A DNA stretch of 64,000 nt from assembly GCA_001657325.1 (NCBI GenBank), contig LWRO01000034.1, positions 1 through 64,000 of the forward strand. Direction: 5' to 3'. The notes beneath the pieces are model-generated. The model was not told the origin of the DNA, did no database searches, and worked only from the letters and a program-made list of their open reading frames with translations. Position numbers and translations under genes: made by a program. This DNA comes from Geitlerinema sp. BBD 1991-9. Lineage in GTDB: Bacteria > Cyanobacteriota > Cyanobacteriia > Cyanobacteriales > Geitlerinemataceae. Shown piece by piece: positions 16,098 through 52,806 of the stretch. The stretch's first letter is position 1; each line of letters opens with the position of its first letter.

Positions 16098-16150
16098 CTA
16101 AAAATTCGCTGACTCAAGCTCGAAAGAACGCCGTTCAGCTTGGCATAATC

Positions 16151-16249
16151 GGGTGCATCTCACTTTTGCGATCGCAACCCCACATCCTCCCCTGACTCAG
16201 GGGAGGTGCCGAAGGTGGAGGGGTCATTCTACGAAATTGAGATGCACCC
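16151..16249. mobile_element. Element B, copy 1: small inverted-repeat element with target duplication
   Basis: Terminal inverted repeats are GGGTGCATCTCA (16151) and TGAGATGCACCC (ending 16249). They are flanked by the direct repeat GGCATAATC (16142-16150 and 16250-16258). The 99-base body contains the stem CCCCTGACTCAGGGG and no ORF. The copy at 41783-41913 has the same termini with the central segment in inverted orientation. Confidence 0.88.
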
Positions 16250-16263
16250 GGCATAATCGGTGT

Positions 16264-19211: not shown

Positions 19212-19275
19212 GGGTGCATCTCAGTTTTGCCAGAACCTGAGGCGTAACACACCCTACCATTACTTCTGTACTGGC
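19212..19275. mobile_element. Left end of an element B copy (fragment)
   Basis: GGGTGCATCTCAGTTTTGCC followed by AGAACCTGAGG matches the left end of the element B copy at 41700. The right terminus is missing here. The downstream part is interrupted by element A copy 2. Confidence 0.65.
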
Positions 19276-19290
19276 ACTCTAGAGCGTCTG

Positions 19291-29738: not shown

Positions 29739-29846
29739 TAGAGCGTCGGGACAGAAAGCGTAGGAAACTTTTACAGTGAGCAGTGAGCAGTGAGCAGTGA
29801 GCAGTGAGCAGTGAGCAGTTGCTAGAGCGTCGGTATAGAAGGCGTA
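29739..29846. repeat. Heptamer array (STRR 2) between two 24-base direct repeats
   Basis: At 29773-29819 there are six AGTGAGC units (TTTTACAGTGAGCAG at the left edge). The array is bracketed by TAGAGCGTCGGGACAGAAAG (29739 on) and TAGAGCGTCGGTATAGAAGG (29823 on), about 84 bases apart. The bracket sequence occurs inverted at 49832-49853 and in part at 19262. The gap 29587-29950 is otherwise non-coding. Confidence 0.75.
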
Positions 29847-29915
29847 TTAAGTCGAGACCAATTCAATACCCGCGTAACGCACCCACACCGATTTTTACCG
29901 TCTTGAGATGCACCC
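29823..29915. mobile_element. Right part of an element B copy
   Basis: CCCGCGTAACGCACC, GATTTTTACCGTC and the terminus CTTGAGATGCACCC (ending 29915) match the right end of the long element B copy at 41914-42068. The left terminus was not found within the gap, so this is a truncated or rearranged copy. Confidence 0.6.
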
Positions 29916-39083: not shown

Positions 39084-41675
39084 ATGTCTCACATTAACTT
39101 CGATCCAGACACGCCAAACACTAAAACGTTCGAGCTACCGGGGGCGCGTCCTCACTATACGCCCGATCGACCGGGACAAGTCGAGCATATTTTCCTCGAT
39201 TTAACCCTCGATATTGCCAAGCGCTGCTTTGAAGGCACCTGTCAGATTCAACTCAATCCCGTTCGCAACGGCATCGACACGCTCACCCTCGACGCAGTGG
39301 GAATCGAAATTGCCGAAGTGTCGATCGACCGCGAACCCCAACCCTTCGATAGCGACGGCCAGCAACTGACGGTTCGTCTGACTGAATCCTCGATCGCCAA
39401 CCAGCCAATTCTCCTGAACGTTCGCTATCGGGTCGATCGACCCCGTCGCGGTCTCTACTTCGTGGAACCGAACGAGAACGAACCGGACAAACCGACACAA
39501 ATTTGGACGCAGGGGGAAGACGAAGATTCGCGGTTTTGGTTTCCCTGTTTCGACTACCCCGGACAACTGGCGACTTCTGAAATCCGCGTCCGCGTCCCCA
39601 AAGACTTTCTCGCCATTTCAAACGGCGAACTTCTATCGACCCAAGTCGACGGTGACGAGAAAGTTTATCACTGGAAACAAACCCAGGTACATCCCACGTA
39701 CTTAATGACTTTAGCGGTGGGACGATTTGCTGAGATTCGCGACGAATGGCAGGGAAAGCCGGTAACGTACTACGTCGAACGCGATCGACTCGACGACGCG
39801 AGACGCAGTATGGGGAAAACGCCGCGCATGGTGGACTATTTCAGCAAAGCGTTCGGCTATCCCTATCCGTTTCCGAAATACGCGCAAGTCTGTGTCGCCG
39901 ATTTCATTTTCGGCGGGATGGAAAACACCTCGTGTACGCTGTTGACCGATCGATGTTTGTTAGACGAACGGGCGGCCGTCGACAACGATCGAACGGAAAG
40001 TTTAGTCGCTCATGAGTTAGCACACCAATGGTTCGGCGATTTGGTCGTCGTCAAACATTGGTCGCACGCTTGGATTAAGGAAGGGATGGCCTCTTATGCC
40101 GAGGTGTTGTGGACGGAATACGAGTACGGACTCGACGACGGGGCGTATTACCTTCTTCGAGAAGCCCGCAGCTATTTAGAGGAAGATAAAAATCGCTATC
40201 GCCGTCCCATTGTTACCAACGTGTATCGGGAAGCGATCGAACTTTACGACAGTCACCTTTACGAGAAAGGGGCTTGTGTCTATCACATGATTCGCTCGGA
40301 GTTGGGGGATGAGTTGTTCTTTCGCTCGATCGCCACCTTTGTGCGAGACAACGCTCATTCAACCGTCGAAACGATCGATTTATTGAGAGCGATCGAAAAA
40401 GCGACCGGACGCAATTTACAGTTTTTGTTCGATCTGTACGTGTTCCGAGGCGGACATCCGGACTTTGAGGTGAGCTATACCTGGGACGGGGACAACAACA
40501 TTGCCCAAGTGACCGTGAAGCAAACCCAAGCGCAAGAGGGAAACACGCTGTACGATCGAAACCTGTTCGATTTACAAATTCCGATTGCGTTTGGCACACA
40601 GAACGATACCATCCATCGGTTTACCGTTCGCGTGTGCGAACTGGAACAGAGTTTCTATTTTGCTTTACCGGAAAAACCGCTCTACGTCAGTTTTGACGAG
40701 GGTAATAACTTTCTCAAAACCCTCAAACTCAAATATCCTACGCCGGAATCGATCGCCCAGTTAAAACACGATCGAGATCCGATTTCGCGCATTTACGCCG
40801 CCATCGCATTGGGGAAAGACGGAAGTGTCGCAGCGATCGAAGCACTCTGCGAAGCGTTACGCTCGGATTCTTTCTGGGGCGTGCGCGTCGAGGTGGCCAA
40901 ACAGCTGGCAAAACTCAATTTGGAACAAACTTTTAAGGGATTGGTCGAGGGCTTGAAAGATTCCGATCCGCGGGTTCGTCGAGCGGTGGTGGACGGTTTG
41001 GGAACGATCGAAACTCGTGCGAGTTACAAGTCGGTGAAGTCGATCTTGAAGAAAGGAGATGAGAGTTATTACGTCGAAGCGTCCGCAGCGAAAGCGTTGG
41101 GTTCGATCGCGAAGAACGATCTCGACGAGAAAGTCAACGCCGACAAGGCAATCGAACGTCTAACGTGGGTTCTCGATACGAAAGCGGGTTGGAACGAAGT
41201 GGTTCGCAGCGGCGCGATCGAAGGATTGAGTCGGTTGAGTACGTCGGAAAAGGCGGCTGATTTGATTTTGGAGTACACGCAGCCGACGATACCGCAAGCC
41301 CTCCGTTTGAACGCGATTCGCGCCTTGGGAAAAGTTTCTACGGGACAGTCGGCGGCTAACGTCGAACGCATCGTCTCGCGGCTGAAACAGTTGTCATCGG
41401 AAGAGTTCTTCTTGACTCAGCGTTCTGTGGTCGTGGCGTTGAGAATGATGGAAACGCCGAAAGCGATCGAAATTTTGAGATCGATCGTCGATCGAACGGC
41501 GGACGGACGCATCGTTCGCGTTGCGGAGGAAGCCATCGAGAAAGTCCAGAAAAATCTCGGTTCGGATAAGGCGGTTAAGGTGTTGCGTCGGGATTTGGAG
41601 AAGATGAAGAAACTCAACCGCGAACTTCTCAGTCGTTTGGAAGCGTTAGAAGCAAAAACTGAAAAATCCGTGTAA
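39084..41675 (+). CDS. M1 family aminopeptidase with C-terminal HEAT repeats
   Basis: This 863-residue zinc aminopeptidase has an N-terminal beta domain (about 15-200), the exopeptidase motif as GGMENTS (from residue 277; GAMEN in the canonical family), and the zinc site HELAHQWFGD (from residue 310) with the third ligand in EGMASYAE. After the catalytic core the C-terminal part (about 565-830) is a series of HEAT-like helical repeats (for example SDPRVRRAVVDGLGTIE), ending in a coiled coil. It releases N-terminal residues from peptides in the cytoplasm. The HEAT tail replaces the usual M1 domain IV. The terminator at 42085 was probably closer before element B inserted. Confidence 0.9.
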   Translation: MSHINFDPDTPNTKTFELPGARPHYTPDRPGQVEHIFLDLTLDIAKRCFEGTCQIQLNPVRNGIDTLTLDAVGIEIAEVSIDREPQPFDSDGQQLTVRLTESSIANQPILLNVRYRVDRPRRGLYFVEPNENEPDKPTQIWTQGEDEDSRFWFPCFDYPGQLATSEIRVRVPKDFLAISNGELLSTQVDGDEKVYHWKQTQVHPTYLMTLAVGRFAEIRDEWQGKPVTYYVERDRLDDARRSMGKTPRMVDYFSKAFGYPYPFPKYAQVCVADFIFGGMENTSCTLLTDRCLLDERAAVDNDRTESLVAHELAHQWFGDLVVVKHWSHAWIKEGMASYAEVLWTEYEYGLDDGAYYLLREARSYLEEDKNRYRRPIVTNVYREAIELYDSHLYEKGACVYHMIRSELGDELFFRSIATFVRDNAHSTVETIDLLRAIEKATGRNLQFLFDLYVFRGGHPDFEVSYTWDGDNNIAQVTVKQTQAQEGNTLYDRNLFDLQIPIAFGTQNDTIHRFTVRVCELEQSFYFALPEKPLYVSFDEGNNFLKTLKLKYPTPESIAQLKHDRDPISRIYAAIALGKDGSVAAIEALCEALRSDSFWGVRVEVAKQLAKLNLEQTFKGLVEGLKDSDPRVRRAVVDGLGTIETRASYKSVKSILKKGDESYYVEASAAKALGSIAKNDLDEKVNADKAIERLTWVLDTKAGWNEVVRSGAIEGLSRLSTSEKAADLILEYTQPTIPQALRLNAIRALGKVSTGQSAANVERIVSRLKQLSSEEFFLTQRSVVVALRMMETPKAIEILRSIVDRTADGRIVRVAEEAIEKVQKNLGSDKAVKVLRRDLEKMKKLNRELLSRLEALEAKTEKSV

Positions 41676-41699
41676 ATCTCGCACCTCGACTGAGATATT

Positions 41700-42068
41700 G
41701 GGTGCATTTCATTTTTGCCAGAACATGAGGTGTAGGGTATGTTAGCGGGCTACAAAAAACTCGGCTGAAGTCGAGACGAATTGGGTGCATCTCACTTTTG
41801 CGATCAAAACCCCTCCGCCTTCGGCACCTCCCCTTAGCCAGGGGAGGATGGGAGGGGTGGCGAGCGCTCAGTCGAGTCGCGGAGGGGTCATTCTACGAAA
41901 TTGAGATGCACCCGACGAATTAGATACCCGCATACAGCATTTCCCTAGCAAGTGAGATACATATAGTCCTTGCCACGTCAAAGCTTAAGCCATGAAATCG
42001 TACCTCATCAGGTTGAAAAACGCGCTGTAACGCACCGACAACGATTTTTACAGTCTTGAGATGCAGCC
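41700..42068. mobile_element. Element B, long copy, with 8-bp target duplication; hosts a nested copy
   Basis: Left end GGGTGCATTTCATTTTTGCC, right end CTTGAGATGCAGCC (one base off the consensus CACCC). The flanking direct repeat GAGATATT is at 41692-41699 and 42069-42076. It is 369 bases long in all and is interrupted by the 131-base copy at 41783-41913. It sits between the aminopeptidase stop and its likely terminator. No ORF of note. Confidence 0.85.
41783..41913. mobile_element. Element B, copy nested inside the long copy
   Basis: Termini are GGGTGCATCTCACTTTTGCG and TTGAGATGCACCC. The 8-base duplication GACGAATT is at 41775-41782 and 41914-41921. The interior stem region is the reverse complement of the one in the 16151 copy, so the core is inverted relative to the ends. 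The segment around 41858-41880 (GGCGAGCGCTCAGTCGAG) is extra. Confidence 0.88.
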
Positions 42069-42084
42069 GAGATATTCATAAATG

Positions 42085-42110
42085 AGGCGTGTTATACACG
42101 CCTTTTTTTA
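42085..42110 (+). terminator. Rho-independent terminator (aminopeptidase gene)
   Basis: A perfect stem AGGCGTGT/ACACGCCT with a 3-base loop is followed by seven T. It lies 410 bases after the aminopeptidase stop. The intervening DNA is almost entirely element B. Confidence 0.85.
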
Positions 42111-42574
42111 TATGATTGGTGTCGATCGAGAAACGATCGTCGCTGTTGCCATCGAGCGAAAAATGGAGTCGATCGTCGATCGAGCGATGGGCTTTAAAAA
42201 TGCCGATTCAACAATAGAACGAACAGGGGTTAACGAGGGGTGAAGTCGTCTCATTTCGAGGAATTGGAGTCCAGAAAGTTAACTGAAACGCACGAAATTG
42301 CACTTGAAAGTTTGAGCGTTGTTTGACTTCTGTTCGGCTCTCGATTCCCTCGACACGACACTCAAATTTTGTATCGATCGATACTGTTCTTACCTTACTC
42401 CTATCGCATCGTAGTCTTCAGCCTTCTGGGATCGATCGAAGCAATGGGAATGCTCCCTCGGGGGGGAGAAGCCTGGCAAACCTTAACAGCCTGGATGCAG
42501 CGTGAACTCCCTGGAATCTACCGCTACACTATAAAACCGGTGTTCTAGGATGTAGCAACGATTTCGAGTCGTTC
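42111..42574. other. Intergenic region before the CbiO-like gene
   Basis: 464 bases with no supported gene. An open stretch of about 70 codons ends at 42549 (...WQTLTAWMQRELPGIYRYTIKPVF). It has no good start and no recognisable family. The promoter of the following ABC ATPase gene should be here. Confidence 0.4.
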
Positions 42575-52760: not shown

Positions 52761-52806
52761 TGGTGTTGCATTTCATTTTTGAATCTGCAGTTTTAAGATG
52801 CACCCC
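52761..52806. mobile_element. Minimal element B derivative
   Basis: TTGCATTTCATTTTTG followed within 25 bases by TTTTAAGATGCACCCC. It is both ends of element B with almost no interior, so a deletion derivative or an end-to-end remnant. No target duplication could be confirmed. Confidence 0.45.

Follow-up and report, generated by a model that had tools for sequence, protein, structure and literature searches.

Positions 41692-42076 of the 64,000-bp window analysed here (C13:1-64000, from a 5.98-Mb draft Geitlerinema genome in 113 contigs; loci elsewhere are given as contig:position) were described by a first-pass annotation as one small repeated element inserted into another, with the interior of the inner copy turned round relative to a third copy. 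The locus therefore raises the questions of whether one element really transposed into the other, what could have moved them, and how the inner core came to be inverted. We consider it very probable that these sequences are non-autonomous MITEs whose terminal inverted repeats (GGGTGCATCTCA...) are those of an ISKra4-family insertion sequence (IS) and which have 8-9 bp target duplications, that such a transposase moved them, and that template switching or recombination inverted their core on one or a few occasions, in a form that then spread.

A nested insertion downstream of an aminopeptidase N-like gene

The outer element is a type-B MITE with two interruptions (41700-42068, minus strand by the convention that B copies elsewhere start with GGGTGCATCTCAAGACTGTAAAAAT), which spans 369 bp as found and has ends GGGTGCATTTCA/TGAGATGCAGCC. 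Once both inserts are subtracted, about 135 bp remain, compared with about 133 bp in uninterrupted B copies. It is flanked on the left (41692-41699) and right (42069-42076) by the target duplication GAGATATT, whose first base lies 16 bp past the stop codon of a frame (39084-41675) that is aminopeptidase N-like, with scores below the models' cut-offs. Within the outer element lies a type-A MITE of 131 bp with perfect 12-bp ends (41783-41913, plus strand), a member of a subfamily with an inverted core and a tail, which is bordered by its own target duplication, GACGAATT (41775-41782 and 41914-41921). Both the outer and the nested duplications are exact and 8 bp long. A third insert, of the form TACAGC...GCTGTA, occupies a TA of the outer element (41933-42029, plus strand, with the TA counted at both ends and limits set by eye); similar sequences occur at C98:57032 and at C66:7350, the latter with a different right end. 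The inner element had been taken for a second copy of the same kind as the outer one, which is correct for the ends that they share but not for their type, the outer element being B and the nested one A, and the third insert is present as well.

No clean orthologous empty site for the outer element was obtained among the six relatives tried. The end of the aminopeptidase gene had a match in five of the six, but in three relatives (G001, G010 and G012) the best match to the transporter was hundreds of kb distant or on a different contig, and paralogous B copies were used instead. Eight of 10 uninterrupted B copies align across the target of the nested element without an insert, with 1 to 7 substitutions over 36 bases and with an exact GACGAATT in one of them, and the other two gave no alignment. 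Because both duplications are exact and eight of the 10 B copies are empty at the target, the reading of 41692-42076 as one MITE transposed into another is supported, and the proposal of a nested insertion with duplications of its own is borne out. The locus would have been built up by insertion of a type-B MITE 3' of the aminopeptidase N-like gene, followed by entry of a type-A MITE that duplicated GACGAATT; a TA-targeting element would also have entered the outer copy, either before or after the type-A insertion.

Two other views of the locus were set aside. A structured-RNA reading was rejected, as Rfam gave no match above the gathering score in 41600-42200, and spread by plasmids was rejected because no match to the locus occurred among plasmids.

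Common ends and target duplications across the genome

In the window, GGGTGCATCTCA with at most 2 mismatches occurs 11 times against 3.5 expected, a count reached in none of 100 shuffles. In the whole 5.98-Mb genome the exact terminal 12-mer is present 202 times and the reversed pattern not once. The terminal inverted repeats consist of these 12-bp ends, or of 16-17 bp if one mismatch is allowed. The elements lack a transposase gene and mostly measure 76-240 bp, with type A mostly 101 bp.

End pairs were drawn from 2.26 Mb of fetched sequence, taken mostly from around ends together with 16 stretches picked irrespective of ends, which covers 200 of the 202 exact ends. Ends lying 30-1500 bp apart with at most 2 mismatches each formed 154 pairs, cross-pairs included. 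The flanks repeat over 8 bp with no more than one mismatch in 87 of these, a number that averaged 0.9 and never exceeded 5 when right flanks were shuffled among pairs. With 8-9 bp duplications, at most one mismatch and pairs under 500 bp, 103 duplications were found (from the 154, with one spanning pair set aside), exact over 8 bp in 55, exact over 9 bp in 13 and with one mismatch in 35. The concern that duplications might be missing from most copies did not materialise, given that 103 of the 154 end pairs, cross-pairs included, have one. Insertion sites of these MITEs tend to lie outside long open frames: of 98 testable empty sites, 6 are within a frame of at least 150 open codons, compared with 1151 of 2000 random sites. 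For annotation purposes, the intergenic hairpins at 16151 and 41700 are best treated as MITEs, neither genes nor RNAs.

Tandem or partly duplicated type-A elements with one common end were also observed, at C58:241127-241296, C91:50216-50447 and C106:5714-5951. At C85:251214-252483 (L103:16542-17811) two ends flanked by an exact 8-bp duplication, AGTTGCTC, stand 1,270 bp apart; they enclose pieces that by eye resemble an aldo/keto reductase, with an E-type MITE at the right end, and the whole is possibly a passenger-carrying element. We considered it as an autonomous copy and rejected this on account of the aldo/keto-reductase-like piece.

ISKra4-type insertion sequences as the likely mover

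A six-frame family search identified a decayed ISKra4-type transposase between the same ends at C1:2761-3949 (1,189 bp; NF033572, E 3.1e-48, 5 in-frame stops), where no target duplication was seen by eye and the right end has one mismatch. A second remnant lies on C70, and the 113-contig draft assembly yielded no ISKra4 match above the cut-off. Pieces of ISKra4 transposase also occur at contig edges (C80:313853-314135 and C63:1-166) with no such end nearby, and seem to belong to another ISKra4 copy or subtype. From the position of these pieces the draft apparently breaks at insertion sequences, so an intact IS could have been missed by the assembly; equally, the family may no longer be moving here.

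Relatives hold copies of about 1.2 kb that are apparently intact. The same-family relative G010 has 1,227-bp copies with identical 12-bp ends and 8-bp duplications; a Tychonema copy measures 1,177 bp with an 8-bp duplication, and a Baaleninema copy 1,186 bp with a 9-bp duplication and an end, GGGTGCATCCCA, that is one base off. The Tychonema and Baaleninema copies pass the ISKra4 cut-off of 205 bits (259.6 and 267.6 bits, respectively), which the G010 open frame alone (183.4) and a Hormoscilla piece (161.1) do not reach. Three copies (L157, L205 and L208) have a 69-residue first ORF followed by the transposase in the -1 frame. Having directly observed the ends, the duplications, the paralogous empty sites, a decayed autonomous copy in this genome and the apparently intact ones in relatives, we infer that an ISKra4 transposase moved the MITEs, which, being gene-less, would borrow it in trans and leave 8-9 bp duplications behind.

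The family is unevenly distributed. Over 50 copies of the exact end are present in each of 11 genomes out of 195, namely the Geitlerinema genome, Baaleninema simplex and nine others, and at least one copy in 96 of the 195. By our own count, matches to the reversed control occur in 29 of 195 genomes, so single end matches mean little. A 19-base end, GGGTGCATCTCACTTTTGC, is found in Baaleninema, Moorena, Hormoscilla, Tychonema, Microcoleus and others among the matches listed. The analysis names a likely mover for repeats that are very abundant and, across the order, patchy in occurrence.

One set of ends, several hairpin cores

Sorting of the 103 duplication-flanked elements by regular expressions assigned 74 to type A, 13 to B, 7 to C and 5 to D/E, with 4 unsorted. 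The notion of a single family accordingly holds for the ends and fails for the interiors, which are not shared and fall into at least five core types by this sorting. Among 141 elements under 260 bp from the Geitlerinema genome and named relatives, the cores formed 19 clusters at a loose threshold. The fold of the representative core had z below -2 in 12 of the 19 clusters, -1.9 for the type-A representative and above -0.7 in four. Whole elements are predicted to fold strongly as single-stranded DNA, with z of -5.5 for 41783-41913 and -6.3 for 16151-16249.

We also asked how the cores compare with the IS interior, using four IS copies. The type-B core scored above shuffled cores in none of the four, and the type-A core in the Tychonema copy only (38 against a shuffled maximum of 35), while above-shuffle scores were obtained in three of four for a 122-bp Baaleninema type, in one of four for an 87-bp Baaleninema type and in one of four for copy C8:61497. 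These comparisons give no signal of derivation from the IS interior for the B core and a weak one for the A core.

Other repeats, some with ends of the form TAGACCTCCTGCATAAATA..., contain a CCTCCCC..GGGGAGG core at C12:39112, C27:12243, C40:23289 and C1:30354; similar hairpin cores seem to ride on different ends.

Orientation of the type-A core is tied to subfamily

While the nesting is mostly ordinary, the rearranging hairpin core is the part worth following. The type-A core is laid out as ACCCC-a-CTCCCC..GGGGAG-b-GGAGGGGT. In the nested element this 50-bp hairpin core (41809-41858, bounded by ACCCCTCC/GGAGGGGT) is in inverted orientation, on the minus strand, and is followed by a tail segment (41859-41880, plus strand, limits by eye) that holds GCGCTCAGTCGAG and marks the subfamily with most of the inverted cores. 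The claim that the nested interior is inverted relative to the copy at 16151 proved correct: the nested core matches the reverse complement of the core of copy C89:56829 at 50 of 50 positions, and the core of the 16151 copy is in normal orientation, agreeing at 42 of 50 positions that way round and at 26 of 50 when inverted.

Scoring of 88 A-like rows, with 4 spanning pairs dropped and at least one row (C8:61497) that is not type A, gave 57 normal, 12 inverted and 4 half-palindromic cores, the remaining 15 being without full classification. The tail marker of the inverted subfamily is CGCTCAGTCGAG or near forms of it. In the Geitlerinema genome 11 of 12 classified tail-bearing copies are inverted, compared with 1 of 57 classified tail-less copies. 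Among classified rows orientation is linked both to the tail (Fisher p 8e-11) and to the genome (Fisher p 3e-6), in tests that take related copies as independent and leave out 19 of the 88 rows. The exceptions are C89:56829, which is normal with a tail, and C6:54875, which is inverted without one; C102:20438, to which the script assigned no class, looks by eye like a normal copy with a tail. In Baaleninema simplex all 22 classified A copies are normal, 13 with the tail and 9 without, in a sample rather than a census, picked from BLAST matches to one normal copy and the nested copy. Since the tail-bearing Baaleninema simplex copies are all normal, the tail seems to predate the inversion.

Of the 31 copies that are not in the normal class, 9 have perfect inverted arms of 12-26 nt; in the 57 normal copies such arms do not exceed 10 nt. 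The median longest perfect arm of the 12 inverted cores is 8 nt, the same as for normal cores, so arm homogenisation is seen in some copies only. On several occasions, it seems, hairpin cores were inverted or became perfect palindromes.

The first-pass annotation had suggested either a flip-flop core or recombination between the arms. A flip-flop would be a reversible switch, in which a recombinase or homologous recombination between the arms repeatedly inverts the core in place. Both orientations do exist, the inverted segment is bounded by the inverted repeats ACCCCTCC/GGAGGGGT, and the two exceptional copies, together with C102:20438 as read by eye, are what such switching could produce. 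Yet repeated inversion predicts an orientation independent of subfamily, and the orientation found here is tied to tail and genome; neither the 13 tail-bearing nor the 9 tail-less copies in the Baaleninema simplex sample are inverted; and a looser scan of the fetched Baaleninema loci gave 11 inverted-like matches, of which, by eye, 10 come from normal copies entered at their right arm and one is an unrelated sequence. That scan tolerated 3 mismatches, enough for normal copies to fit the inverted pattern in this way, and its counts are left out of the tallies given here. Moreover, the 131-bp element is too small for a recombinase gene, and arms of 8 bp are short for homologous recombination. 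We rejected the switch as the main reading and regard it as improbable. The other half of the suggestion fares better, as template switching between the short inverted repeats, followed by spread, fits best as the account of the ancestral inversion. The inversion would have happened perhaps once or on a few occasions, through a template switch (or recombination) involving the short inverted repeats on either side of the core, and the tail-bearing inverted subfamily would then have spread.

Fragments, chimeric joins and hairpins without ends

The window holds a third complete copy, as had been reported: a 99-bp type-A MITE with a normal-orientation core (16151-16249, plus strand), flanked by the 9-bp duplication GGCATAATC at 16142-16150 and 16250-16258. 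The sequences reported as fragments turned out to be of two kinds. By eye, two of them are portions of type-B elements fused to other repeats: 19212-19246 (plus strand) is a left part that meets another repeat at a TAACACACCCTAC motif common to both, and 29850-29915 (plus strand) is a right half that meets a repeat starting with TAGAGCGTCGG. The fragment placed at 52761 proved to be weak and degenerate, spanning about 42 bp (52764-52805), with a one-mismatch right end and no visible duplication.

Repeats starting with AGAGCGTCGG or similar were noticed at 19280, 29743 and 29824 of the window and at C102:48814-49025, the last within the hairpin loop of a type-A MITE and perhaps with a CTAG duplication. 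Near the B fragment, AGTGAGC units form a tandem run at 29774-29819.

Chimeric joins of this kind bear on the possibility that the stack at 41692-42076 arose through recombination between dispersed repeats, or an assembly error, and not through transposition. Such joins do occur, by eye, at 19212, 29850-29915 and C112:125383 (where an A element follows directly on a D-type left end), and the genome is a draft. However, both the outer and the nested copy have exact 8-bp duplications, which recombination alone does not create, and the inner duplication matches a target held once in uninterrupted B copies. Formation of the stack by such joining, or its origin in misassembly, is extremely unlikely. 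The nested insertion in a large ISKra4-type MITE family is real.

Just as hard to credit is the idea that these are REP-/RAYT-type palindromes or other small dispersed repeats, mobilised without inverted-repeat ends or duplications: strong folding, avoidance of long open frames and the 12 of 81 CTCCCC/GGGGAG hairpins in the fetched 2.26 Mb with no end of the family nearby would suit it, but 59 of the 81 lie between two ends and 10 more have one, and we rejected it on the conserved 12-bp terminal inverted repeats and the 8-9 bp duplications, which match ISKra4-type IS.

Comparison with known systems

Bacterial MITEs, including Nezha and other cyanobacterial ones, are described in two reports as short, multi-copy, mostly intergenic elements with terminal inverted repeats and target duplications, for which mobilisation in trans is presumed (PMC10969869; PMC3542288, on Anabaena sp. 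90). The present family resembles them in all of these structural features. It differs from them in that hairpin cores of several unrelated kinds share a single set of ends and in that the type-A core has inverted and palindromised forms. Our coverage of the literature was partial and yielded no published description of this family or of any ISKra4-derived MITE; as far as that search goes the family is new, while the MITE as a kind of element is already known.

With regard to the mover, an earlier survey assigns to the ISMich2 group of the ISKra4 family a transposase in two ORFs with a -1 frame, and records the wider p-MULT 4 group in cyanobacteria (PMC3942029). The points in common are ends shared with ISKra4 copies in relatives and, in those copies, a transposase spread over two ORFs with the -1 frame, duplications of 8-9 bp and a length near 1.2 kb. 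The elements of the window differ in being without a transposase, and the likeness to ISMich2 is one of ORF layout.

The cores themselves recall the G/C-rich intrastrand triplex motifs that are reported to reach high numbers in some cyanobacteria and to be linked to instability (Holder et al. 2015, PMC4666352); for the E. coli triplex motif the same work reports no association found with mobile elements. When the spacers of the published consensus (PMC4666352) are relaxed, it matches type-C cores: this relaxed form has 6 matches in the fetched sequence, 5 of them between two ends and the sixth inside a duplication-flanked 229-bp element (C12:10074-10302). A Leptolyngbyaceae assembly contains 6 elements with type-C-like cores and 8-9 bp duplications. 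One type of triplex-like motif, that of the C cores, is thereby placed inside a transposable element. The nested type-A core does not match the consensus CCCTCNCCC..GGGNGAGGG..GGGNGAGGG and is a loose fit only, with CTCCCC/GGGGAG and, by eye, a mirror repeat GGGGAGG...GGAGGGG, a likeness at the level of sequence.

A broader proposal, which we offer tentatively and hold to be somewhat less likely than its converse, is that the hairpin or triplex-like G/C-rich repeats of filamentous cyanobacteria are cargo between ISKra4-type MITE ends, that the core is a template-switching hot spot which continually gives inverted or perfected-palindrome cores that found new subfamilies, and that different kinds of mobile end have picked up some of the same core types. 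A parallel is template switching between inverted repeats in yeast coding genes, which is said to yield arm homogenisation and spacer inversion (PMC8604942). Both products are seen here too; the system there consists of yeast coding genes, whereas here the process would be read from copies of a mobile element. With its many copies and its inverted, half-palindromic and minimal-hairpin cores, such an element is a natural record of DNA hairpin rearrangement.
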